Positions 38,093-51,902 of a stretch of DNA of 64,000 nucleotides are shown here, piece by piece. The stretch is taken from positions 1 through 64,000 of the forward strand of contig JAFXFC010000052.1 in NCBI GenBank assembly GCA_017513525.1. The letters run 5' to 3'. Below the pieces are notes generated by a model that worked only from the letters and a program-made list of their open reading frames with translations, had not been told where the DNA came from and made no database searches. Source of the DNA: Clostridia bacterium. GTDB taxonomy: Bacteria > Bacillota > Clostridia > Oscillospirales > Acutalibacteraceae. Position 1 is the first letter of the stretch, and every line of letters starts with the position of its first letter. The position numbers were made by a program, and so were the translations under genes.

Positions 38093-39484
38093 TTATAGAG
38101 TACTTGCCCATTTTTTTATTAAATCTTTCATTTCCGGATTTTGAATAAGTTTTAATAACGTTTCTGATTCGTTATCTATTTCATCTACTGTAAGCTCTTG
38201 TGGTGGTGCTTGCTGATTTTTAAAGTTTTCTGAATGCGAATTTTCATATTTTGAATAAAACGCTTCTTCAAATTTTGCTGCATTATATTTTCGGTCTTCA
38301 TCTATAATATGTGAATAAACATCGGTTATCATTTTGACTTGTGAATGTCCTGAGTCTCCTTGAACAGATTTTACATCACCACCGTTAAGTTTAAGCTTGT
38401 ATGTAACACTTGAGTGCCGTAAACTGTGAAAAACAATGTGAGGCAGGTTATTCTCTTTTATCAACTTTTGTAGTGCTCTTGTTATAATCTGACTTTCCAT
38501 AGGTCTTCCGTTTGGTGAACAAAACACAAGATTATAATCAAAATATTCTTCTCCAAAAAGATCTATCAGCTCCTGAATGTCACCATATCTTTTTCTGAGC
38601 ATCGAAGCTACCGTTTTTGGTAAATAAATCTTTCTGACACTGCTTGCGGTTTTTGGTGTTTTAAGAACCAAAACGGTGGTGTTTCTGCTAAATACAGCAG
38701 GGAATTTTTTTATAACATCTTTTTCGCCGAGCTTCTCCATAACCTCTTTGTTAACTCTTTGAAGCTCTTTATTGATAATGATGTAAGATTCTCCTGATGC
38801 AATACTTGCTTCAGAGATTTCTATACAGTCCCAAGTAAGTCCAAGCATTTCGCCAATACGCAAAGAACAGGCAAATGCAAGATTAAGCGCTAATTTTAAT
38901 ATTTCATCATCGCAAAGTGAAATTGCCTTAAAAAGTGTTTCTGAATCCCATATTTCTCTTTCCTTGCGTTCGGTTTTCGGAACAGTTGCATTCAGGCAAG
39001 GATTTTTTGATATTAATTCCCATTTGATAGCCTGATTAAAAGCACATCTTAATAGCTTGTGTATTTCTCTGATAATATTTGCGGACACCGCTTTTTCGGG
39101 TGATTTATATGAACTCACAAATTTCATATTAAGCAAATCAAGATAATATTTTTCTATAATTCTTGTGTTTATATCTTTCAATTCAATTTGTCCGATAACA
39201 GGATTAATATAATGAGATATCAAGCTTTTTCTGCCTTCATATGTCGACATAGCCCATTTATTTACACCGTAAATTGTTACATAGTCATTCAACAAATCTG
39301 CTACAGTTTTAGCTTCATAAACCAAGAATGTTCCGTTTTGTTGTTGATATTCAATCTCACTCTTTCTTTTCCTGGCAGCTGTATTTGTATCAAAAGTTTC
39401 CCATTTCTGCCGTTCTTTTCCCTGCTCATCAGTATATCTATAAACAACACAGTACTTATTCTTTCGCCTGTATATCGAAGCCAT
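38093..39484 (-). CDS. int: Tyrosine integrase of an integrative element
   Basis: 463 residues. The N-terminus resembles the arm-binding domain of Tn916-type integrases (YRRKNKYCVVYRYTDEQGKERQKWETF). A SAM-like core-binding domain follows. The catalytic domain shows SLRIGEML (Arg), VFHSLRHSSVTY (His-x-x-Arg), SGHSQVKM (His) and TDVYSH (Tyr). The enzyme cuts and joins element ends. AAAGGAGC precedes the ATG. It overlaps the excisionase-like gene by 29 bases, as expected for an int/xis operon. The gene looks intact. No flanking repeat pair that would fix the element ends was found. Confidence 0.92.
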   Translation of the reverse strand: MASIYRRKNKYCVVYRYTDEQGKERQKWETFDTNTAARKRKSEIEYQQQNGTFLVYEAKTVADLLNDYVTIYGVNKWAMSTYEGRKSLISHYINPVIGQIELKDINTRIIEKYYLDLLNMKFVSSYKSPEKAVSANIIREIHKLLRCAFNQAIKWELISKNPCLNATVPKTERKEREIWDSETLFKAISLCDDEILKLALNLAFACSLRIGEMLGLTWDCIEISEASIASGESYIIINKELQRVNKEVMEKLGEKDVIKKFPAVFSRNTTVLVLKTPKTASSVRKIYLPKTVASMLRKRYGDIQELIDLFGEEYFDYNLVFCSPNGRPMESQIITRALQKLIKENNLPHIVFHSLRHSSVTYKLKLNGGDVKSVQGDSGHSQVKMITDVYSHIIDEDRKYNAAKFEEAFYSKYENSHSENFKNQQAPPQELTVDEIDNESETLLKLIQNPEMKDLIKKWASTL

Positions 39485-39920
39485 TATTTGAGCTCCTTTC
39501 TTTTTCAGATTTCTTTACATAATGATGTTGGTTTTTATACCAATTATCATAACTCTTTTTGTCCACTCTTTTAGTGTTTTCAACGTTTATTATTTTGATA
39601 GTCTTTTCTCGGTGCATAAGCTGGGATGCTGTTGTTCTTGATATACCCAAATCTTCAGCAATTTGCTGTATTGAAATAACTTCTCCGAACTTACTCCCCG
39701 GTGGGGGACCATTAGTTTTTTTATAATGAAACTGTCCTGCATACCATTCCTCGAAGCTATCAATCATTACTCGAAGAACTCCGGCAACTTCTCTTGTCTC
39801 AAAGAAATTCTTTTTTATAAGCCAATATGATTCAACCTTTTTTAATCCTAACAACTCCCCCATTTCTATTACAGACATACTCTTTTTCTGCTTTGTTACA
39901 GTCATACAACTTTTATCCAT
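39456..39920 (-). CDS. Double helix-turn-helix excisionase-like protein
   Basis: About 154 residues. Two similar winged-helix-like segments occur: MSVIEMGELLGLKKVESYWLI...VMIDSFEEWYAGQ and ISIQQIAEDLGISRTTASQLM...VDKKSYDNWYKNQ. Each resembles an excisionase/MerR-type DNA-binding unit, so the protein looks like an internal duplication. AAGGAGTG supports ATG 39920; the frame opens earlier at 39965 without such a site. It probably controls direction of integrase action. Confidence 0.75.
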   Translation of the reverse strand: MDKSCMTVTKQKKSMSVIEMGELLGLKKVESYWLIKKNFFETREVAGVLRVMIDSFEEWYAGQFHYKKTNGPPPGSKFGEVISIQQIAEDLGISRTTASQLMHREKTIKIINVENTKRVDKKSYDNWYKNQHHYVKKSEKERSSNNGFDIQAKE

Positions 39921-39994
39921 ATCAGACACTCCTTTTTTATTTTCAGTATGTCTTAATTTTATCAAATAAATTTATTTTTGTGAAATGTGCGATT

Positions 39995-41117: not shown

Positions 41118-41147
41118 TTACAATAACTGTTAATTATTGGGAGATGA
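41118..41147 (+). repeat. Module A left inverted repeat (30 bp)
   Basis: Begins TTACAATAACTG and ends GGGAGATGA. Its exact reverse complement is at 44914-44943. It contains CAATAA-N7-TTATTG, two inverted arms around a 7-base core (CTGTTAA), like a tyrosine recombinase crossover site. GGGAG within it serves as ribosome site for the gene at 41157. Confidence 0.9.
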
Positions 41148-41156
41148 AAATATAGT

Positions 41157-42296
41157 ATGTTATATCATTTAGATGATATAGAAAAGATACGTAGTTACGA
41201 AAAACTTCAACGAAACAAAGGACATAATGTATTTGATATATCGCATTGGGATTCAGGAAATGAATACAAAAAAAGTCTATCTTCAATACTAGATTTTAAT
41301 TGTACATTTGAGCCATTTGATTACATATACAGTTATGAAATAGACAAAAAAGTACATTCAAAAGTACAAAAAGAATTAATTGGTGCTAGTGACGATTGCA
41401 CCATTTTCTTTCAAAATAGCACAATTGCAATTGTAAATATATGCAATTTCCTGCAAAAAAACAAAATAAACAATATCTGTGTTTTGCAACCAGCATATTT
41501 CACGGTTAGTCCCTGTTTGAGAGCGTTTGAAATTAATACTAAAAATGAAAGTTTATTATTCCAAAATGAAGTTTATAGAATTCCGATAGAGAAAATAATA
41601 AACTCTAAATACGATGCTATTTGGATAACTTCTCCTATTTTTTGCACTAGTACATATTATAGCCAGCAAGAGATTGATAAACTTCAATTACTATTAGACA
41701 AGGGTTATTATGTTATTTGTGATGAAAGTTTGTCGATTAAGGAATATAATTTAAGACATCAGCTAACCAACAATGAAAGACTCTTATCTTTATATAGTCC
41801 TCATAAAGTCATAGGTACCAACACAATAAAATTTTCTTGTTTAATTTGTAACCATGAGTATGAAAACTTTTTTGATCAATGGACGGATCTGTTTTCTGGT
41901 GGATTATCCAATTCATCAAAAATAGCTATAAATCATTTTTTGACACCCAATTATTATAAATGTCTAGATTTTCATACAAATTATACTAACAGTGTAAAAA
42001 AGAAAGCGTTAGAGGTTATTGCAATTAATAATAAGGATGGAGATATGTTTTTTTCTCATTCAGTCGGTCAATATATGACCATTTTTTGTCCATCAGTACC
42101 ATATCACCAATCGACTAAACAAACTTTTATTAGAGATATTATTTTCAACACCAATGTTTCTATATTGCCAGGTTATTTAGAAGGATTTTATGAAGAAATG
42201 GGATTTTGCTTTCGTGTGAACTTAACTTCAGATGAAAGCCGATTAATAACAAGTTTAAATAGAGTGTTAAAATACATAAATGCTAATTATTTGTAA
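41157..42296 (+). CDS. PLP-dependent aminotransferase-like enzyme
   Basis: 379 residues with the fold-type I layout: a glycine/serine strand followed by FFQNSTIAIVNI, AYFTVSPCLRAF, an aspartate strand YYVICDESLSI (PLP ring contact) and YSPHKVIGTN with the candidate Schiff-base lysine. The C-terminal domain contains FCFRVNLTSDE (carboxylate-binding Arg). The closest general resemblance is to class I/II aminotransferases such as histidinol-phosphate or threonine-phosphate types; the substrate is unknown. The ribosome site lies in the module A repeat. It converges on the pentapeptide gene, overlapping it by 10 bases. Confidence 0.75.
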   Translation: MLYHLDDIEKIRSYEKLQRNKGHNVFDISHWDSGNEYKKSLSSILDFNCTFEPFDYIYSYEIDKKVHSKVQKELIGASDDCTIFFQNSTIAIVNICNFLQKNKINNICVLQPAYFTVSPCLRAFEINTKNESLLFQNEVYRIPIEKIINSKYDAIWITSPIFCTSTYYSQQEIDKLQLLLDKGYYVICDESLSIKEYNLRHQLTNNERLLSLYSPHKVIGTNTIKFSCLICNHEYENFFDQWTDLFSGGLSNSSKIAINHFLTPNYYKCLDFHTNYTNSVKKKALEVIAINNKDGDMFFSHSVGQYMTIFCPSVPYHQSTKQTFIRDIIFNTNVSILPGYLEGFYEEMGFCFRVNLTSDESRLITSLNRVLKYINANYL

Positions 42297-43750
42297 AAGT
42301 ATTCCACACTACTTATATTGTTCCTATTAAAACCTTGATAGTTATTATTTATTGTCATTCCGTTAATAACAAAAACATTGATGGCACTCGAAACATCCTT
42401 ATCTGTTTGAATTTGATTAATCTGCTTACTAATTGTATCTGGTAAATTTAATACTACAGTATTTCCAACGCCTTGCTGAGATACATTGTTAACATTATGA
42501 TTTGGTTCTTCTTTTTGAACATCCTTTGAGGGTTTGGGCTTTACTTTAACGATTATACCTATAATCGAAAGTAATATTTGTAAACACTTGAGTATATTGT
42601 CTGGTGACTCAATCCATTCAATAAAAGACCCCTTCTCTGTTTTGATTTGTATAGGTTCAGATGCACAAATTCCCAACTGCTTTTGAAGCGACTGCAATAA
42701 AGCACAAGTTTCAATTGTTGGTTTTTCCTTAAATGTGAATTTTATTATAATGTCAGAATTATTTACATTAATCTCCGAAATAGCAGAATCTAATTCATCA
42801 ATATAGTTTTGATATGCTTTAAACAAAGTATTATGTATAAAGTTTATATCGCTTTTTGATTTAGTGGCGGCAATATTTTTTATTTCTGATTTTTTAAATG
42901 TATCAATTAATGATATCAGTTGAATAATGGTTATTGGAGAAATCAAGTCGTGCTCTAAAGAATGAGCTAATACAAGTTCTATGAATCTAATTTCCTCAGA
43001 ACGTACTATAATGTTATTTTGTATTTGTTGCAAAATAACATTAATACAAAAAACGAGGGAGTATTCATATGAATAGTTATTAGAATTAAGCTCTACAATT
43101 GCAGCATTAATAAGTTCCTTGTTATCTATAAGTTTTTGTTGCAATTTCTCAAGTTCATCATAATTTATACCTAATTCTACCAAATTTTTTGGAGCAATTC
43201 CAAAATTTGATGACATAACTAAAGGATCGATACTTGTTTTTTCGAACGCAGAATTAATAAGTAGATTAAAAACGAAATTTCCATTTATCTGTGAATTAAG
43301 CCAATTACATTCAATAAAAGTATTCAAAGATGTAGAACTTTGTCTTAGATTCATATTATCTATCACACAACTCGTAAAGGTTGAATCGCTCATTGTTATG
43401 TGATTAAAATTACACGATATAAAAATACAATTTTCAAATGTATTGCTCATCATTGTTGAACCTTTAAAGTTAACTCTAACAAATTTACATTTTTTAAAAT
43501 CGCAAGAGATAATATCAGAGTTTTGAAAAGATTGGTTATCAAACGAACAATTTTCTATGTGCGAACTGTCAAAATCAGAATTTGCAAATAATGTTTTAGA
43601 AAAATCGGTTTCTTCAATTATACAGTTCTTAAATGAAATTGAATGCATGTCCGTACCTGAAAGATTTTTCCGGGTAATTTGTAGAAAAGTATAAATTTCA
43701 TTTGGGCTAAAGCTTTCGTTACATTGATTGTAAATAGTCAAGTCGTTCAA
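42287..43750 (-). CDS. Pentapeptide-repeat protein with C-terminal hydrophobic segment
   Basis: 487 residues starting at TTG behind GGAGGTG. Residues about 35-165 form an irregular pentapeptide-repeat helix (CSFDNQSF, CDFKKCKF, VNFKGSTM, CNFNHITM). A helical middle follows, then a short hydrophobic helix near 375-395 (LQILLSIIGIIVKV) and a Gln/Asn-rich tail. Pentapeptide helices mediate binding, sometimes mimicking DNA. The start is 27 bases from that of the divergent decarboxylase gene, so the two share a regulatory region. The role in the module is unknown. Confidence 0.7.
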   Translation of the reverse strand: MNDLTIYNQCNESFSPNEIYTFLQITRKNLSGTDMHSISFKNCIIEETDFSKTLFANSDFDSSHIENCSFDNQSFQNSDIISCDFKKCKFVRVNFKGSTMMSNTFENCIFISCNFNHITMSDSTFTSCVIDNMNLRQSSTSLNTFIECNWLNSQINGNFVFNLLINSAFEKTSIDPLVMSSNFGIAPKNLVELGINYDELEKLQQKLIDNKELINAAIVELNSNNYSYEYSLVFCINVILQQIQNNIIVRSEEIRFIELVLAHSLEHDLISPITIIQLISLIDTFKKSEIKNIAATKSKSDINFIHNTLFKAYQNYIDELDSAISEINVNNSDIIIKFTFKEKPTIETCALLQSLQKQLGICASEPIQIKTEKGSFIEWIESPDNILKCLQILLSIIGIIVKVKPKPSKDVQKEEPNHNVNNVSQQGVGNTVVLNLPDTISKQINQIQTDKDVSSAINVFVINGMTINNNYQGFNRNNISSVEYFYK

Positions 43751-43777
43751 AAAAACACCTCCGAAAGGATAATAATA

Positions 43778-44908
43778 ATGAATAATGATTTAATTGATAT
43801 TTTAAAGACTCCGTGTCATATAGTTGATATTGAAAAAATTAAACTAAATATAGATAGCTTGTTGTATATCAAAAACAAAACAAATGCAAAAATATTATTT
43901 GCAATAAAAGGATTTTCAAATGATAAAATAACTCCTATGTTTATATCTAGTTTTGATGGTGTTAGTGCTAGTGGCCTTTGGGAAGCAAGATATGGCAAAG
44001 AATTGTTAAAAAAAACAGTGCACACATATTCTTCTGCTTATAAAAAAGAGGATTTTTCTATCATAAATAATTATAGCGATTACATTATTTTTAATTCTAT
44101 ATCACAACTAAAAGCTTTTACTTCAGAGGGTAATATAAACAGTCAAAGAGTGGGAGTAAGAATCAATCCTGAGTATTCTGAAGTAAAAAAATATTCGATC
44201 AATCCATGTCATCAGTTTTCTCGCTTTGGGGTGACTATAGACAAACTATCCAAACTTGAACTGAAAAATGTTTCGGGGCTACATTTTCATTCGATGTGCG
44301 AACAATACGAAATGACACTTGATAAAACTTTAAGTATAGTTTCAAATAATTTTAATGAGTATTTATATCAAATTAATTGGCTTAATATAGGCGGTGGCCA
44401 ATTATACTCCGATGAAAACTATAATTTAAATCAAGCTGTATCTAGCATTAACTTTTTACAAAATAAATATAATTTAGATGTTTTTCTTGAGCCTTGTGAA
44501 ACAGTAGTATTAAATGCCGGGTATACTGTAGCAAGTGTAGTTGATATTGTACATAATGGAATAGATTCAGCTATACTGGACTTGTCTGCAATTTGTCATT
44601 TGCCCGATATAGTTAATTCTCCATATAGATGTGAAATCTTAAACGCATCACTGCCATACGAAAAAGAACACACATATAGGTTAACCGGTTGCACTTGTTA
44701 TGCAGGCGACATATTTGGAGATTATTCTTTTGACAAACCGTTAGAAATCGGAAGTAAAATTGTTTTTTTAGATACAGCCGCATATTCTATGGTAAAAAAC
44801 AACTATTTCAATGGGATGATTCCGCCTTATTATGCTGTCCTAGATTCTAATAAAAAAATTAATATTGTAAAAGAATATGATTATAAAACATTTTTGTCTA
44901 TTTTATAA
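43778..44908 (+). CDS. nspC: NspC-like PLP-dependent decarboxylase
   Basis: About 376 residues, ATG behind AAAGGA. The fold III PLP enzyme pattern is clear: FAIKGF with the cofactor lysine near residue 42, RINPEYSE, SRFGVT, GLHFHSMCE, NIGGG, EPCETV, and TGCTCYAGD with the active-site Cys. The ending (YYAVLD) also matches carboxynorspermidine decarboxylases. The usual partner, carboxynorspermidine dehydrogenase, is absent here, and the gene sits with an aminotransferase, so it may act on another amino acid product. The stop lies 5 bases from the right repeat of module A. Confidence 0.85.
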   Translation: MNNDLIDILKTPCHIVDIEKIKLNIDSLLYIKNKTNAKILFAIKGFSNDKITPMFISSFDGVSASGLWEARYGKELLKKTVHTYSSAYKKEDFSIINNYSDYIIFNSISQLKAFTSEGNINSQRVGVRINPEYSEVKKYSINPCHQFSRFGVTIDKLSKLELKNVSGLHFHSMCEQYEMTLDKTLSIVSNNFNEYLYQINWLNIGGGQLYSDENYNLNQAVSSINFLQNKYNLDVFLEPCETVVLNAGYTVASVVDIVHNGIDSAILDLSAICHLPDIVNSPYRCEILNASLPYEKEHTYRLTGCTCYAGDIFGDYSFDKPLEIGSKIVFLDTAAYSMVKNNYFNGMIPPYYAVLDSNKKINIVKEYDYKTFLSIL

Positions 44909-44913
44909 ATATA

Positions 44914-44943
44914 TCATCTCCCAATAATTAACAGTTATTGTAA
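44914..44943 (-). repeat. Module A right inverted repeat (30 bp)
   Basis: Exact reverse complement of 41118-41147. Read on the minus strand it would lead into the 3' end of nspC, where no minus-strand gene starts, so it is not explained as a promoter. Confidence 0.9.
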
Positions 44944-44974
44944 GTTTTTGCTTATAACCATAAATGCCTAATTG

Positions 44975-45936
44975 TCATAATTTATCTTTTGCTGAAGTTT
45001 CATAATACTGATTTGTTAATTCTGAATGCAAAAATGAATCGATCATTAATTTAAGAAAGGCATCCTTTGATTTTTTTTGTCAAGTCGAATTGCTTGTCCA
45101 TCTTCGCTATATTTAAATCTTCCTGCAAGTTCTTTTGTAGTTTTCGTGAACTGGACTATTGTTTCTTTAGGAATATTTAAACTAAATATTGGAGAAGTTT
45201 TTTTAACTTTTGACAGCTTTCTTGCAAAATTTATTTCTTCTGCAGAGTCTTTTAAAACTTGAATATCATCTAACAATCCAAGTACATCTATTGCGTCAAT
45301 AGTTTCATTAGCTGCTTTGTTTATTAATACACTGAATTTGATATTTTGTTCTAAAACTTTTGTATCTAAAACATATATTTCTCCATCAATAAGCATTAAT
45401 TGTGCATCTCCATTGAGTCTTAAAATATCGTCCCCTTGGATAAGTTCAAATCGCTTTTTTGCTTTTTTTATGCCTAATAAAAAACTATCTCTCTTTATAA
45501 GTGATATTGAATAGTGTTTTTTAAATAAAACTATACCGTTTTCTATTGTGCCAAGGTATATTATGTATCCGTATAGGCTATTAATGTTGTCTTTGTGAAA
45601 ATTGAACTTATCCATATTGTTGATGCTAGAATTAATATCAAATTTCTTAAAAAGTTTTAATTCTTACGGATATTCATCATAATCGTAATGATATGATGCA
45701 TTAATACGTTCATCTGCAGTTGACAGTTCACAAAGCTGAAGTTCGTCATTATTAACAATTTTATTAACAATAAATTCATTAAAAAGCTTGGTAACTTCAG
45801 TTTCTGTTTTTCCGTTTTCAAGGTCAGCTCGCTTTGCAATGAACTGCTCATCCTGCTTTAATAATAAAAAAACTTGGGCTGATATAGGTTGAGATACAAT
45901 GCTCTCAATATTCTTTTTTTAAATTTCCACTTCCAT
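44975..45936 (-). pseudogene. kwaB: Broken kwaB (Kiwa anti-phage protein B, DUF4868)
   Basis: Joined reading frame of about 320 codons, the normal KwaB length. The recognisable core is the segment with FLLGIKKAKKRFELIQGDD, LMLIDGEIYVLDTK and a helical C-terminal part. It is interrupted by in-frame TAA at 45919-45921 (codon 6) and 45664-45666 (codon 91). A lost base in the T8 run 45071-45078 (A8 on the coding strand) diverts the end; adding one base restores KDAFLKLMIDSFLHSEL up to a TGA at 44975. The longest uninterrupted piece runs 45046-45615. KwaB binds DNA and works with membrane KwaA against phage. Its ATG overlaps the kwaA stop (TAATG). Confidence 0.8.
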
Positions 45937-46523
45937 TATTTTATCTTCTTTGCAAACCAAACATGTTTATCTACTTCAATCCATTTAATAGAACTATCTT
46001 TATCCAGGCTATCTTTAGTAATAAGTATAACTTCATTAATTTCCTCTTTTCTATCAATTTCAACTTTATATAATTTGTAACCTAATATCGCTAAAGTCGG
46101 ATTGCCATAATAGAGATCCATTTTAATAAAAATTATACCGATAACAAATAATAAGATTACAAAAACAGCAATGTATCTTACATCTTCAAAATCAATGCAA
46201 ACAAGAGGAATAATACAGGTTGTTGAAAATGTTAAATATTCATAATTTTCATTTTAAATTGCTTTTATCGTGTAAGGGGGATTGCACGATCCTTTCCATG
46301 CAAATTCTGTAATTGATACCAACACAAAACATAAAATACACAAAATGATTGTTATAGTTGGAAAAATATTAGTTTCCAACAATAGCATTATTTTATCGTG
46401 AATTGGTATTGTTGATTGTAGACAAGGTATTTTAATAGTACATATTGTCACCAAAAAGAAGAGTCGCCACAAAGAGATAATATAGAAACGAACTTTTAAC
46501 AGCATATTTTGCGTGTTACTCAT
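45936..46523 (-). pseudogene. kwaA: Broken kwaA (Kiwa membrane protein A)
   Basis: 195 codons, normal length for KwaA, with four hydrophobic helices. One in-frame TAA at 46254-46256 (codon 90) splits it, just after the conserved-looking FAWKGSCNPPYTI. Reading on without frame change gives NENYEYLTF, IIPLVCIDFEDVRYIAVFV and the C-terminal VDKHVWFAKKI. GAGGAGG precedes the ATG. The protein anchors the Kiwa complex at the inner membrane. Only the stop codon separates it from an intact gene. Confidence 0.8.
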
Positions 46524-46544
46524 AAAACAACCTCCTCAATATGT

Positions 46545-47240
46545 TCATTTCTTTCTTTCTTTTTTCGCCATAATTCCGTTGTTAAACTGAGTATCCAATA
46601 TGCCTTGCAAGTCATTTGAAAAACTTTTTATTTTTGCATATTCACTTTTTTTTAATATACTTATGAAAGATATAAAACCAAACAATGTAACGACAAGAAA
46701 CGATGGAATTAAGACTGCAAAAATTCCGTAGGTAAAAATCATATTAATATCCACTTCTTTTTCCATTATGACAGCCAATATTGTTAAAATAACCGGAATA
46801 ATTAGCACTTGAACAAAACGAAAAAGAACATCAAAAACTTTTTGTTGATGCTGTTCATGTTTTTTTATATGATTATCGATTCGATTTTTTATATCTTCTA
46901 TGTTTTCTTTTTTAGAATTTGTTAAAACACCGCTTAGCCAAGTATAAAGGTTGTTGCAATACTCTTTGTAATCATAAAGGTTAGTTAAACTATTATTTAT
47001 TTCATATCGCTGTGTGTATGTAAAATTTATAATAGAAACAACAATTTCAATAATTAATGCTGCAAAATAATATCGTCTAAGAGGCTCAAGTATAATAGTA
47101 AGCAAAGCGAATAACACTGCGATTGATAAGGCTACGAGCAATATAATGATACTTTTGGGTGCTTTTTTTATAACATCAGTGATTTTTGAAGAGTTTTGAT
47201 TAAGATATAGCAAATAGTTTTTGTACAATAAAAGTTCCAT
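46545..47240 (-). CDS. Four-helix membrane protein upstream of kwaA
   Basis: 231 residues. Hydrophobic helices at about 30-50, 58-75, 142-163 and 172-200 flank a charged helical loop (KNRIDNHIKKHEQHQQK). It has the SLATT-like look of small membrane proteins from conflict systems, though I cannot prove it. AAAGGAAA precedes the ATG. It ends 21 bases before kwaA, so it was probably the first gene of the same operon. Unlike kwaA and kwaB it has no internal stop. Confidence 0.6.
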   Translation of the reverse strand: MELLLYKNYLLYLNQNSSKITDVIKKAPKSIIILLVALSIAVLFALLTIILEPLRRYYFAALIIEIVVSIINFTYTQRYEINNSLTNLYDYKEYCNNLYTWLSGVLTNSKKENIEDIKNRIDNHIKKHEQHQQKVFDVLFRFVQVLIIPVILTILAVIMEKEVDINMIFTYGIFAVLIPSFLVVTLFGFISFISILKKSEYAKIKSFSNDLQGILDTQFNNGIMAKKERKK

Positions 47241-47268
47241 AATGTATTTCCTTTATATAAGTATTTTT

Positions 47269-47294
47269 GCCACCTTTTTTTAGGTGGCTTTTTT
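47269..47294 (+). terminator. Terminator before module B
   Basis: GCCACCT and AGGTGGC around a T loop, followed by six T. It blocks plus-strand transcription from entering module B from the left. Confidence 0.75.
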
Positions 47295-47328
47295 GTTGTC
47301 CTGATGTCCAAATTACTATTTATCTCTA

Positions 47329-47392
47329 AATAACTTCTTATTATTGTGAAATTAGATAAAGGATAATTCTTTATTATTCTTAAGAGAAAGGA
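47329..47392 (+). repeat. Module B left inverted repeat (64 bp)
   Basis: Begins AATAACTTCTTATTATTGTG and ends AAGAGAAAGGA. It is exactly repeated in reverse at 50125-50188. The 7-base core CTTCTTA lies between AATAA and TTATTG, the same design as in module A but with another core. The inner part supplies the leader and GAAAGGA ribosome site of the gene at 47399. Confidence 0.9.
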
Positions 47393-47398
47393 CCCCTT

Positions 47399-49090
47399 AT
47401 GGAAAAGGATTATAGTGATGTTTTACAATTTTTTAGAGAAAATCAAGAGGGTTTTACAGTTTATGTAGTTGAACGTAGATTTGCAGTTCGTCGAGGAAAT
47501 GAATTTTTTAAGTCATACAGTGGCAGTAAGCATTATATACGTAATGAAGCAGATATGAAAAAAACAATCAATAAAATTCTTGATTATGTTCAAAAGAGTA
47601 TTCCCAATATTTTAGAATTAATTGGCCTTGCAACTAAATATCCTCAAAAAGTAGGTATTCCAGAATTATTAAATGTTTTACTCAAATTATTCTTTACAAA
47701 TGAACATCAAGCAGCGGGACCTGAAGTAATTGACCCTATTATAATTGAGGAAGAGTCCATTTCACCATTGTATATGTCTCAGTTAATATCTTTACATAAG
47801 CATAGTACTCTACGTCCTGTAATAATTATAATTCTAAAAGACAATGATTTTATTCGTGCAAAAGAAATTTTAGAAACTTGTCCACATGGATTAAATGTTA
47901 AATTAATACGAAATAGTGGGGAAACAAAAATTTTTAAAATCATAAATACTGGTGCTGCTGATGTCGAAGGTTTTTTGGATGCATTTTCCAGACAATGTTT
48001 TAGCACATGTTCACAAACCCAAAGAAGTGTTTTAATTAATAATGAATGGTCTAATAATGCTATAGCAAATGAATATGCACCATCCATTTTAAAAGTAAGA
48101 ACAAATTTGCTTTTTGATGAAAAGACCGAAGCACTGCCAATAATAAATGACATTATTAAATCTTTAGAAAGTAAAAATAATAATAGTATTCTTGATGAGA
48201 AGCTTGTGGAAGGCTTCCTCTGTGCAGTAAAACTGATGAATGTTTATGCTAACGATGCACCTGGTTCTGATCTAAAAGATGCATATGAATTAGCAAAAGA
48301 CTTAGACAATGAATTATTGTTGGCACACGTATATCGTTATGTAGATTATTTTAAGAACATAAGTAGACAAGAGAAAATAGAATGTCTAAACAAAGCCAAA
48401 GAAATATTTGATGCTAATAAAATAGAAGATCATGCAATTTATTGTGAGAACAATAAGCTTATTCAACAGTTTTATTCACAGAATATAAAAGTACGTGATT
48501 TTAAAAAAATGCATGAAAATGCAATTAACAATGTTCCAGGACTTGTAGGTATGTCAATAATATGTAACAATGCAGGTGTAGCACATTTATATACTGGTAA
48601 TCCTAATGCCGCAGTAGATTATTTCAACAAGGGACTAGACTACGCACAAGATAGGTTAGTACAGTATTTGGGGTTAAAGTGCAATAAATTAGTTGCACTT
48701 GATTATTCGTTGACAAAAATTGAAGAGAAAGAGATTAGAGCAACGATAGGCGAGATTATTGGCATATTCGGGAAAAATCAATTTTCATTTATTACAGCTA
48801 ATTATTTGTTAAACCTCCTTACTATTGTCCTACGTCAAATCCCCGAGGCTTATAAAGCAATTATAAATGATTATCCGATATTTGACATTATAAATAATGC
48901 AATTAAAATAAATGAATTAGGTTCTGGTAGTCTGCAAGCGCAATTGTCATCCATGGCATCTAAATACAGTCAATTTGATACAGAAAAAATACTCAAAGTT
49001 AAATCTCCCAAATCTACTATTTCAGGAATAAGAGAATTTTTTGTTGAGGATAATAAATATAGCCCCACTATTTTTAATGCTTGGCTTTAA
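47399..49090 (+). CDS. Large helical (TPR-like) protein of module B
   Basis: 563 residues. The N-terminal about 240 residues are mixed, with a hydrophobic strand LRPVIIIIL near 140. The rest is made of helical pairs in TPR spacing (for example IICNNAGVAHLYTGNPNAAVDYFNKGL). No signal or membrane anchor. TPR proteins usually bind partners; the partner may be the ligase of the same module. Its 3' end overlaps that of the convergent ligase gene by 17 bases. The leader is identical to that of the ligase gene because both lie in the repeat. Confidence 0.65.
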   Translation: MEKDYSDVLQFFRENQEGFTVYVVERRFAVRRGNEFFKSYSGSKHYIRNEADMKKTINKILDYVQKSIPNILELIGLATKYPQKVGIPELLNVLLKLFFTNEHQAAGPEVIDPIIIEEESISPLYMSQLISLHKHSTLRPVIIIILKDNDFIRAKEILETCPHGLNVKLIRNSGETKIFKIINTGAADVEGFLDAFSRQCFSTCSQTQRSVLINNEWSNNAIANEYAPSILKVRTNLLFDEKTEALPIINDIIKSLESKNNNSILDEKLVEGFLCAVKLMNVYANDAPGSDLKDAYELAKDLDNELLLAHVYRYVDYFKNISRQEKIECLNKAKEIFDANKIEDHAIYCENNKLIQQFYSQNIKVRDFKKMHENAINNVPGLVGMSIICNNAGVAHLYTGNPNAAVDYFNKGLDYAQDRLVQYLGLKCNKLVALDYSLTKIEEKEIRATIGEIIGIFGKNQFSFITANYLLNLLTIVLRQIPEAYKAIINDYPIFDIINNAIKINELGSGSLQAQLSSMASKYSQFDTEKILKVKSPKSTISGIREFFVEDNKYSPTIFNAWL

Positions 49091-50114
49091 AATATGCCAT
49101 AATTGAATTTGATAAAATTAATCCTGTTAATGTAGCATTCTGTATCTGACTTGAGTATAAGTCCCAACAATTTTTCATATTGTATTCATCCGTAAGAGAA
49201 CTTAATGATGTATGAAAATTAATATTTTTCTTTATAGTAGGCATAGGATTTATTTCCAAGAAAAAGAGTTCAGAGTGCTCTATCGGTCTGTTTTTTCTGT
49301 CAATTAATTCAGATATGGATTTACATTTTATTCTAGCATCTATTCTACAATATGTATCTACCAATAAAGACTTTGCCATGTTAATATAATAGCATTTTGC
49401 TTCATCGCTTAAATTGACGCATATTTTCTCATACCCCATATGTTTTGACTTTTCTTCCTCACCTAAAAACCATGAGTTATCTTTGCTATTCGGGTAATAT
49501 ACTACTGCAGGCATAACCTCGAGTTGTTCTGATAGTGGATTGTACATAATTGGAGTAGTTATATCAAACCCGTTAATAAATTCTTGATATACATAAGACC
49601 TATAAGTGTTTATATGTTCTTGGCTAGGATTCTTTACAACTCCTTTACTGCTACCAAAACCGATTGGTCTAAATATTCCGCCATTATCATTTATATTTAA
49701 ATCTCTTGGTACATTCATCCCCTTGGCTCGTGCAATAAGATTTGAATAATGTTTATTCTCTCCGACAAGAGATACATAAGCATTACAAGGAATGCATGGA
49801 ATATTAAGAAAGCCACATGTTGCAGGAACTAAGCCTAATGTAGATAAAGATATTGTTCCATTACATAAATTTACAACAAAATCTGTCTGTGGTAATGAGT
49901 TGTTCATTGCCTTGAATACAAACGTTCTAACATCCATAATTAACGGAAGGCAACCTATTTCTTCAATTGCAGAAAGCCAATCACTGATAACATCACTTTT
50001 CCAAGCATCGTATTGTTTTAAGCCTTCTTCTTGTTCTCCTCTAAATGAGTATACAAGTATTATTGTTTTTCCTCTAAGTTCATCTAACAATGATAAATAC
50101 ATTTCTTGTTTCAT
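49074..50114 (-). CDS. ATP-grasp ligase, D-Ala-D-Ala ligase-like
   Basis: 346 residues. The layout follows D-alanine-D-alanine ligase-type ATP-grasp enzymes: an N-terminal fold with VVNLCNGT, a central KGVVKNPS strand, SYVYQEFINGFDITTP as the hinge Glu region, then YCRIDARIK and LFFLEINPMP, which supply the Mg-binding Asp, Glu and Asn. These join a carboxylate to an amine using ATP. Substrates are unknown and it lacks a cell-wall gene context. GAAAGGA lies in the module B right repeat. With the PLP enzymes of module A it hints at a small amino-acid-derived compound. Confidence 0.8.
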   Translation of the reverse strand: MKQEMYLSLLDELRGKTIILVYSFRGEQEEGLKQYDAWKSDVISDWLSAIEEIGCLPLIMDVRTFVFKAMNNSLPQTDFVVNLCNGTISLSTLGLVPATCGFLNIPCIPCNAYVSLVGENKHYSNLIARAKGMNVPRDLNINDNGGIFRPIGFGSSKGVVKNPSQEHINTYRSYVYQEFINGFDITTPIMYNPLSEQLEVMPAVVYYPNSKDNSWFLGEEEKSKHMGYEKICVNLSDEAKCYYINMAKSLLVDTYCRIDARIKCKSISELIDRKNRPIEHSELFFLEINPMPTIKKNINFHTSLSSLTDEYNMKNCWDLYSSQIQNATLTGLILSNSIMAYFKAKH

Positions 50115-50124
50115 ACTCTTATTT

Positions 50125-50188
50125 TCCTTTCTCTTAAGAATAATAAAGAATTATCCTTTATCTAATTTCACAATAATAAGAAGTTATT
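50125..50188 (-). repeat. Module B right inverted repeat (64 bp)
   Basis: Exact reverse complement of 47329-47392. Its outer side reads TTACAATAA, as in both repeats of module A, so the two modules share the outer arm. It contains the ribosome site of the ligase gene. Confidence 0.9.
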
Positions 50189-50204
50189 GTAAGCTTCTAC
50201 AAAT

Positions 50205-50260
50205 CTCCTCGAAATTTTGATAAAATGATTTTGCGCACACATTTTTAAAATTTCGAGGAG
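50205..50260 (+). promoter_or_regulatory. Hairpin that can hide the recombinase ribosome site
   Basis: CTCCTCGAAATTTT (50205-50218) pairs perfectly with AAAATTTCGAGGAG (50247-50260) over 14 bp. The right arm contains GAGGAG, the ribosome site for the ATG at 50269. Folding would block translation of the recombinase. Confidence 0.7.
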
Positions 50261-50268
50261 TTGATTAA

Positions 50269-51180
50269 ATGAAAAGCATAAAAACAGCAAGTGAGGAATT
50301 TATACAAGTCATTCAATCTACAAAAAATTTATCTGATAAAACGATACTTGCATATCGTTCGGATTTGAATGATTTTCATGTGTTTCTTCAAGACAATATA
50401 CTTGATGAAACAGTTATCCTGAAATATGTTCAAATGTTATCTAAAGAAAGAGAACTTAAAGATAACACGGTTTGCCGAAAGTTAATTACACTAAAGATGT
50501 TTTTTGGTTTTCTTTACGAAAACGGCTACACAGATTGTAATTATTATAACAATCATCACTTTCGATATAAAAAAGAACGGAGATTGCCCAAGACATTAGC
50601 AGTTAAAGAAACATCAAAATTGCTATCTTATCTTACACAGGTAGCAAATAATGAAACCAGTTATTTTGAATATTGGAAAAACTGTCGTAATCTTGCATTA
50701 ATTGATATTTTAATAAGTACCGGTATAAGAATCGCGGAAGCATCGAATATAGCTTTTAGCGATGTGATATTTTCAGAAAGAACGATTTTAATTCACGGTA
50801 AAGGTCGTAAGCAAAGACTGATATATATATCTTGTACTGAAACATGGAGTAATCTTACAAAATGGTTGAAAGTCCGCAAGAGCAGACCTATTAACACAGA
50901 TAAAATATTTGTAAATAGATACGGAGAACAGTTGAGCATTCATGGGATTGAGTATATTTACAAAAACGCAAAAAATGCCAGTGGAATAAATCAAAAATCA
51001 ACTCCTCATTATTTGCGACATACTTTTGCCACTAATCTTCTTTCAAACGGAGCAGATCTTCGCTCTGTGCAGGAAATACTGGGACATAGTAGTGTTGCAA
51101 CTACTGAGATTTATACCGAAGTATCGACAAAGAGAAAAAAGCAAGTTCTTAATAAATATAACTATCGGAATAAATTATAA
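50269..51180 (+). CDS. XerD-like tyrosine recombinase
   Basis: 303 residues, the size of XerC/D-type recombinases and invertases. SAM-like core-binding domain (TILAYRSDLNDFHVFLQ), then the catalytic set: STGIRIAEA (Arg), HGKGRKQRL (Lys loop), PHYLRHTFAT (His-x-x-Arg), LGHSSVATTEIYT (His, Tyr). It starts 80 bases from the right repeat of module B, pointing away. That position and the Xer-like crossover layout in the four repeats make it the best candidate for inverting both modules. It could also be the integrase of an element ending near tRNA-Arg. Confidence 0.88.
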   Translation: MKSIKTASEEFIQVIQSTKNLSDKTILAYRSDLNDFHVFLQDNILDETVILKYVQMLSKERELKDNTVCRKLITLKMFFGFLYENGYTDCNYYNNHHFRYKKERRLPKTLAVKETSKLLSYLTQVANNETSYFEYWKNCRNLALIDILISTGIRIAEASNIAFSDVIFSERTILIHGKGRKQRLIYISCTETWSNLTKWLKVRKSRPINTDKIFVNRYGEQLSIHGIEYIYKNAKNASGINQKSTPHYLRHTFATNLLSNGADLRSVQEILGHSSVATTEIYTEVSTKRKKQVLNKYNYRNKL

Positions 51181-51494: not shown

Positions 51495-51539
51495 AAAACA
51501 TCGCAGAATCCTTGATTTACAAGGATTCTGCGATGTTTT
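51495..51539 (-). terminator. Terminator of tRNA-Arg
   Basis: A perfect 20-bp stem (AAAACATCGCAGAATCCTTG with its complement) with a 5-base loop. On the minus strand it ends in a T-run, directly after the tRNA. Confidence 0.9.
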
Positions 51540-51542
51540 AAT

Positions 51543-51617
51543 TGGCACCCTCTACCGGAATCGAACCGATATCTAAGTCTTAGGAGGACCTTATTCTATC
51601 CGTTGAACTAAGAGGGC
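51543..51617 (-). tRNA. tRNA-Arg (CCT anticodon)
   Basis: 75 bases including an encoded CCA. The cloverleaf is readable on the minus strand: acceptor GCCCTCT with AGAGGGT, anticodon stem AGGTC/GACTT around loop CTCCTAA (anticodon CCT), and TTCGATTC in the T arm. tRNA-Arg genes are frequent integration targets, and the adjacent accessory region fits that. Confidence 0.93.
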
Positions 51618-51680: not shown

Positions 51681-51720
51681 CTTAGGAGGGGCTTATTCTA
51701 TCCATTGAACTAAGGAGGCA
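51681..51720 (-). pseudogene. Degenerate 5' half of a tRNA-Arg gene
   Basis: 40 bases match the 5' half to anticodon loop of the intact tRNA-Arg with only a few changes (shared TTATTCTATCC and TTGAACTAAG on the plus strand). The T arm and 3' acceptor half are absent. The rest of the 51618-51902 gap is AT-rich, with AAAGGAG before the next gene. Confidence 0.8.
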
Positions 51721-51902
51721 GAATATTGATTTAACCGGCTTCATTTTAGCAAAAACCCCCTTGCTTGTCAATGATTTATTGCCCTTTTTGCATTATTACC
51801 CTTGATTAGTTTTTTTGTGTATGGTAAAATGATTTTGAAAATAGGGGAGTGTCGGTTTTATTCGGTGCTTTTTTGTTTGTTTTATTAAAAGGAGTAATAC
51901 CA

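Follow-up and report, generated by a model that had tools for sequence, protein, structure and literature searches.

The G segment of phage Mu and the C segment of phage P1, inverted by Gin and Cin, respectively, each contain two convergent gene sets served by one outside promoter. In invertible hsdS and BREX pglX loci, a recombinase is linked to phase-variable defence genes, and in the pdif modules of Acinetobacter, which rely on the host XerC/XerD, genes lie between inversely oriented Xer sites and are shuffled among replicons. Phase-variable type I restriction-modification systems (PMC10790761) and phase variation of gut bacteria via inversion of PhaseFinder-type invertons (PMC8748976) have also been described, and in the mba locus of Ureaplasma parvum (MBA/UU376), XerC-mediated inversion leads to two opposed genes being expressed in turn (PMC3599477, PMC3047005). 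Here, we analysed a 64,000-nucleotide stretch of a Clostridia bacterium genome (contig JAFXFC010000052.1 of assembly GCA_017513525.1; hereafter, the window), which carries two neighbouring gene modules, A (41118-44943) and B (47329-50188), next to a gene for a Xer-like tyrosine recombinase. We consider it likely that A and B are invertible segments which form an either/or switch run by this adjacent recombinase.

Like the mba locus, the modules combine a Xer-family tyrosine recombinase, short inverted repeats and two opposed genes. However, the Ureaplasma recombinase gene is unlinked and the switched genes encode surface proteins, whereas here the recombinase is adjacent, the cargo is varied, with enzymes accompanied by STAND, TPR, TIR or pentapeptide-repeat proteins, and two tandem modules have different site cores. 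The Mu G and P1 C segments likewise invert with two convergent gene sets inside them, but they employ a serine recombinase and exchange variants of a single function, not unrelated proteins. Inversely oriented Xer sites also flank the pdif modules, which are not known, however, to have either a dedicated recombinase or the fixed two-strand cargo rule found here. PhaseFinder-type invertons flip a short promoter rather than whole gene groups of ~2-7 kb, and the hsdS and BREX pglX loci, although similarly linked to a recombinase, shuffle variants of one specificity gene. A literature search for this combination of cargo and switch retrieved nothing nearer than the Ureaplasma mba locus and the pdif modules.

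Recombination sites and the adjacent recombinase

Both modules are bounded by perfect inverted repeats, as the initial annotation had reported: 30 bp in module A (41118-41147, plus strand; 44914-44943, minus strand) and 64 bp in module B (47329-47392, plus; 50125-50188, minus), each pair being re-found at 100% identity. The motif AATAA-N7-TTATTG, said to be present in all four repeats, yielded seven strand matches, all at the four repeat ends and none elsewhere in the window; shuffling predicts 0.37 matches and none of 100 shuffles reached seven, which rules out simple chance as their origin. The 7-bp core is CTGTTAA at both ends of A (left site 41121-41139, CAATAA-CTGTTAA-TTATTG; inverted at the right end) and CTTCTTA at both ends of B (left site 47328-47346, AATAA-CTTCTTA-TTATTG; recombinase-proximal site 50171-50189), that is, shared by the two ends of a module but not by the two modules, just as had been noted. 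The outer arm held to be common to three of the four repeats is indeed TTACAATAA at three sites, with CTAAATAA at the left end of B. The left repeat of B also includes the leader and Shine-Dalgarno sequence of the neighbouring gene.

The gene recognized beside the last repeat (50269..51180, plus strand; ATG 81 bases after the repeat) encodes a Xer-like tyrosine recombinase of 303 aa, the proposed invertase for A and B. The protein matches Phage_integrase (PF00589) at 2.6e-37, and the R-K-HxxR-H-Y residues are intact, as in all intact relatives. By its equivalog scores it falls outside the housekeeping XerC and XerD groups (225.6 versus a curated cut-off of 335 and 215.7 versus 330, respectively). 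Because only two of 26 genomes of the genus, its own included, carry this recombinase or a close relative, we regard it as an accessory gene; one further full-length Xer-like protein is encoded elsewhere in its own genome. Relatives with 56-87% identity were found in several Clostridia, with truncated copies in loci L014 and L020, but a scan of viral contigs for relatives found none, and the module therefore does not appear to be phage-borne. Between the site and the recombinase gene, an imperfect palindrome, CTCCTCGAAATTTT...AAAATTTCGAGGAG (50205..50260), conserved in the subgroup of 84-87% identity, is a possible promoter/operator region.

Relatives were collected via the recombinase, and 17 recombinase loci were scored for sites. 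In 16 of these, the recombinase start codon is preceded by a site at a distance of 72-83 bp, and in L022 the distance is ~170 bp. All ten site pairs recovered, from eight genomes and with eight different cores, are inverted and matched in core: modules A and B of the window, L015, L017, L018, L023 and L030/G775, as well as G276 (L071), module C of G776 (L087) and G253 (left and right contigs L072 and L073). Adjacent modules differ in core in all four sets (window, G776, G276, G775), and different cargo can carry an identical core in different genomes. Stray matches to the site motif, including G247:C16 and G182:C74, appeared unrelated when inspected and were discarded. Immediately inward of some module ends (L015:7878-7940, L018:4551-4603) there is a second, palindrome-like element, GATAA-N7-TTATC, with a spacing resembling that of a recombination site.

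In the mechanism that we propose, the recombinase would flip A and B at sites consisting of CTTACAATAA / TTATTGTAAG type arms and the 7-bp core. The core would set the direction of the site, identical cores would let both ends of one module recombine, and different cores would presumably hold neighbouring modules apart.

Inversion in the module family

The default maximum k of MEGAHIT is 141. For the RGIG genomes, 150-bp reads had been assembled using MEGAHIT at default settings and IDBA-UD at maxk 124 (PMC8199421). Since k exceeds the length of the repeats (20-64 bp), a fixed repeat should leave the assembly unbroken. Yet, seven of the 17 contigs carrying the recombinase break off 4-116 bp beyond the site (L019, L021, L022, L024, L028, L084, L085), and contigs also end at the sites of outer modules that have no recombinase of their own (G775:C53, G276:C29). 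Contig C47 of G775 starts with a 123-mer, corresponding to k-1 for k=124, which is composed of 98 bases of reversed recombinase flank, 19 bases of site and 6 bases common to both module ends; in this contig, both junctions are present, the recombinase flank being connected to each of the two module ends, and the left-flank contig C39 ends exactly at the base from which the module ends differ. The recombinase contig of G253 terminates in a 141-mer of 116 bases of cargo, 19 of site and 6 shared by the left and right flanks, the very branch node to be expected if a single module end adjoins both flanks. Furthermore, the homologous modules of L018 and L023 (SHMT 62%, STAND 38%) are in opposite orientations.

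The assemblies show that modules of this recombinase family invert, both orientations being represented among the relatives (G775, G253, L018 versus L023), and for the species of the window we infer the same. The initial annotation had proposed that the modules are invertible and had suggested looking in relatives for the opposite orientation and for other cargo; the ten core-matched pairs, which carry varied cargo, the L018/L023 comparison and the G775 and G253 junctions lend good support to this proposal in the relatives. Independent flipping of each module, also suggested there, gains indirect support from the different cores of neighbours and the outer sites at contig ends.

Convergent cargo and its transcription

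Module A encodes a putative pyridoxal-phosphate-dependent aminotransferase-like enzyme (41157..42296, plus strand; 379 aa), the 3′ end of which overlaps the next gene by 10 bp, a pentapeptide-repeat protein identified through Pfam (42287..43750, minus; 487 aa), on the strand opposite to both enzymes, and a carboxynorspermidine-decarboxylase (NspC)-like enzyme (43724..44908, plus), the true start of which is probably the ATG near 43780. The NspC-like label is strong (377 bits to TIGR01047, with a cut-off of 409; carboxynorspermidine decarboxylase in PDB at 3.5e-91). Those of aminotransferase and ATP-grasp, given at the same time, are weaker: the NCBIfam matches to the former are weak, with the fold recognized at 3e-6, far under the cut-off of the hidden Markov model, and the latter, an ATP-grasp ligase-like enzyme of module B (49074..50114, minus; 346 aa), has a weak match to D-Ala-D-Ala ligase (6.6e-4) together with D-Ala-D-Ala-ligase-like motifs (GSSKGV, CRIDAR, FLEINPMP) largely kept in its homologues. 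Its AlphaFold model has a mean confidence (pLDDT) of 48, too poor for use. Its 3′ end overlaps by 17 bp the gene of a TPR-repeat protein with an unassigned N-terminal domain (47399..49090, plus; 563 aa), a homologue of which is found in the L017 module. The proteins earlier described loosely as binding-type are this TPR protein and the pentapeptide-repeat protein of A, the latter showing weak similarity to the pentapeptide protein encoded in the G276 module. PADLOC models matched none of the module proteins in the window, and the functions given here are family-level predictions. Across ~365 genomes of the order, the TPR protein was found only as the window copy, and the GNAT-SHMT protein of L018 and L023 was not found, in a search that had no positive control.

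The cargo consists of two convergent and usually overlapping units, one encoding STAND, TPR, TIR or pentapeptide proteins and the other metabolic enzymes, an arrangement overlooked in the initial annotation, which had supposed a biosynthetic or defence system and was half right, as both classes are present in every module, one on each strand. Thus, a TPR protein faces an ATP-grasp enzyme in window B and L017; a pentapeptide protein faces an aminotransferase and the NspC-like decarboxylase in window A; a membrane STAND protein faces GNAT-SHMT in L018 and L023, with an additional PhnM-like protein in L018; TIR faces a P-loop kinase in G776 B; Mrr-STAND-TPR faces UDP-galactopyranose mutase and a GT2 glycosyltransferase in G776 C; and pentapeptide and membrane proteins face ATP-grasp/radical SAM and radical SAM proteins in G276. 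In L030/G775, STAND and PHP proteins face SHMT, CYTH and an NDK-like protein, and the PHP protein violates a strict split between enzymes and effectors. As in Mu G and mba, each segment holds two oppositely oriented units: all ten gene junctions are convergent, eight with overlaps of 4-29 bp, one with a 1-bp and one with a 278-bp gap. By comparison, none of 41 convergent neighbours outside the modules overlap by 4-30 bp, and five overlap by 71-179 bp but look like spurious open reading frames. Which class faces the recombinase side differs between loci.

In the subgroup of 56-69% identity, the stretch between recombinase and site contains a strong, near-consensus promoter directed leftward into the module (L021, L023, L026, L028, L084), equalled in at most one of 100 shuffles. 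At the opposite end, a terminator-like hairpin with a T-run (47269..47297, plus) ends ~40 bp left of the left site of module B, and such hairpins lie 28-46 bp outside the left site in seven of 13 loci, module B included, compared to 7% of random stretches. These signals favour activity on the recombinase side and a left end that is silent, although no such promoter was found in the window subgroup. Transcription of module A by read-through from the Kiwa operon that follows it is a guess from gene order. Each module would then comprise two facing transcription units with touching or overlapping 3′ ends, one for a sensor- or effector-type protein (STAND/TPR, TIR, pentapeptide) and the other for small-molecule or glycan enzymes. 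Inversion would swap the unit adjoining the transcribed flank, on the recombinase side for B and perhaps on the Kiwa side for A, and thereby switch expression, with the cell expressing one unit or the other according to orientation.

Alternatively, inversion could be real but both units might be expressed from promoters of their own in the repeated leader, so that flipping would alter read-through or antisense transcription without an either/or choice. The inner repeat holds the leader and Shine-Dalgarno sequence, in G253 also the start codon, the window subgroup is without a clear external promoter, and one module end of G775 contains a promoter-like TTGTGA-N16-TATAAT (read by eye). We nevertheless consider this unlikely, given the terminators beside the left site, the strong promoter that points inward from the recombinase flank in the deeper subgroup and the overlapping 3′ ends of the units, with no terminator between them.

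Neighbourhood, cargo exchange and significance

Modules A and B are separated by a decayed Kiwa defence locus (44971..47240, minus; PF16162) comprising a broken KwaB, KwaA and a membrane protein. The KwaB frame is broken when compared by tblastn with the intact copy of L015, which PADLOC identifies as KwaB; PADLOC matches to KwaB occur only between modules, and a TIR-TM match was obtained in L015. The order module-Kiwa-module-recombinase is repeated in G776/L015, with an intact Kiwa and other cargo, and in G276, two module sites enclose an AbiE toxin-antitoxin locus. A left end of ~400 bp is common to four loci (L016, G253, G776, G775); because it adjoins different cores and cargo, or a bare site in L016, the cargo at this slot is exchangeable. 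Lone sites by the recombinase at L016:1752-1770 and L026:7774-7792 have no module and represent empty slots, and L014:8344-10952, with a truncated recombinase, one site, a TylF-like methyltransferase and an ATP-grasp homologue, is apparently a locked remnant. Mobilisation genes and serine recombinases are found near several loci. Just left of module A (38093-39965, minus) are an integrative-element tyrosine integrase and a small helix-turn-helix/excisionase-like gene. Directly after the recombinase gene lies tRNA-Arg(CCT) (51543-51617), and the interval separating the two contains a terminator-like inverted repeat (20 bp, perfect, 5-base loop; 51495-51539); 102 bp beyond the tRNA, a 45-bp, 84% identical copy of half of it (51681-51725) is possibly a trace of integration.

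Exchange of cargo raises the question of whether the modules are mobile cassettes of the pdif kind, with gene shuffling as the main role and inversion as a by-product. The inversely oriented Xer-type sites, the tandem modules separated by defence genes (window, G776, G276), the common left end and the equal cores with different cargo across genomes would all fit, and host XerC/XerD may act at the sites despite the adjacent dedicated recombinase. However, the dedicated recombinase at a fixed distance, the strict convergent layout and the assembly branches pointing to inversion within a sample make this account rather improbable. That the repeats are static, as relics or gene-conversion products, is very improbable: although the window was assembled in a single orientation and the recombinases of L014 and L020 are truncated, contigs break at repeats much shorter than k, inversion is indicated by the junctions of G775 and G253 and by the oppositely oriented homologous modules, and the catalytic residues are intact.

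Several observations weigh against a recombinase-driven either/or switch. The outer arm at the left end of B is degenerate, and module A has an inward-reading gene at one end only. Some loci (L014, L016, L026) have a single site without a module, and a search of the recombinase flank in the window subgroup revealed no consensus leftward promoter. The window was assembled through in one orientation, and the contig junctions of the relatives come from metagenome assemblies and may include chimeras.

Inversion of whole genes by a Xer-like recombinase is already known. Absent from the literature searched is a recurring family in gut Clostridia in which STAND, TIR, TPR or pentapeptide proteins are set head-on with small-molecule or glycan enzymes and tandem modules, separated by different cores, lie among Kiwa and AbiE genes; a simple sequence signature is available for finding further modules. 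One dedicated recombinase might even drive several independently coded modules (2^n states), each setting an immune-receptor-like protein against an enzyme set with which it cannot or need not coexist, for example, two incompatible phage resistances, but we regard this extension as fairly unlikely. The either/or switch itself predicts that defence-type and metabolic genes are expressed mutually exclusively, and its payoff would be the alternation of a defence-type protein with metabolic or surface modification.

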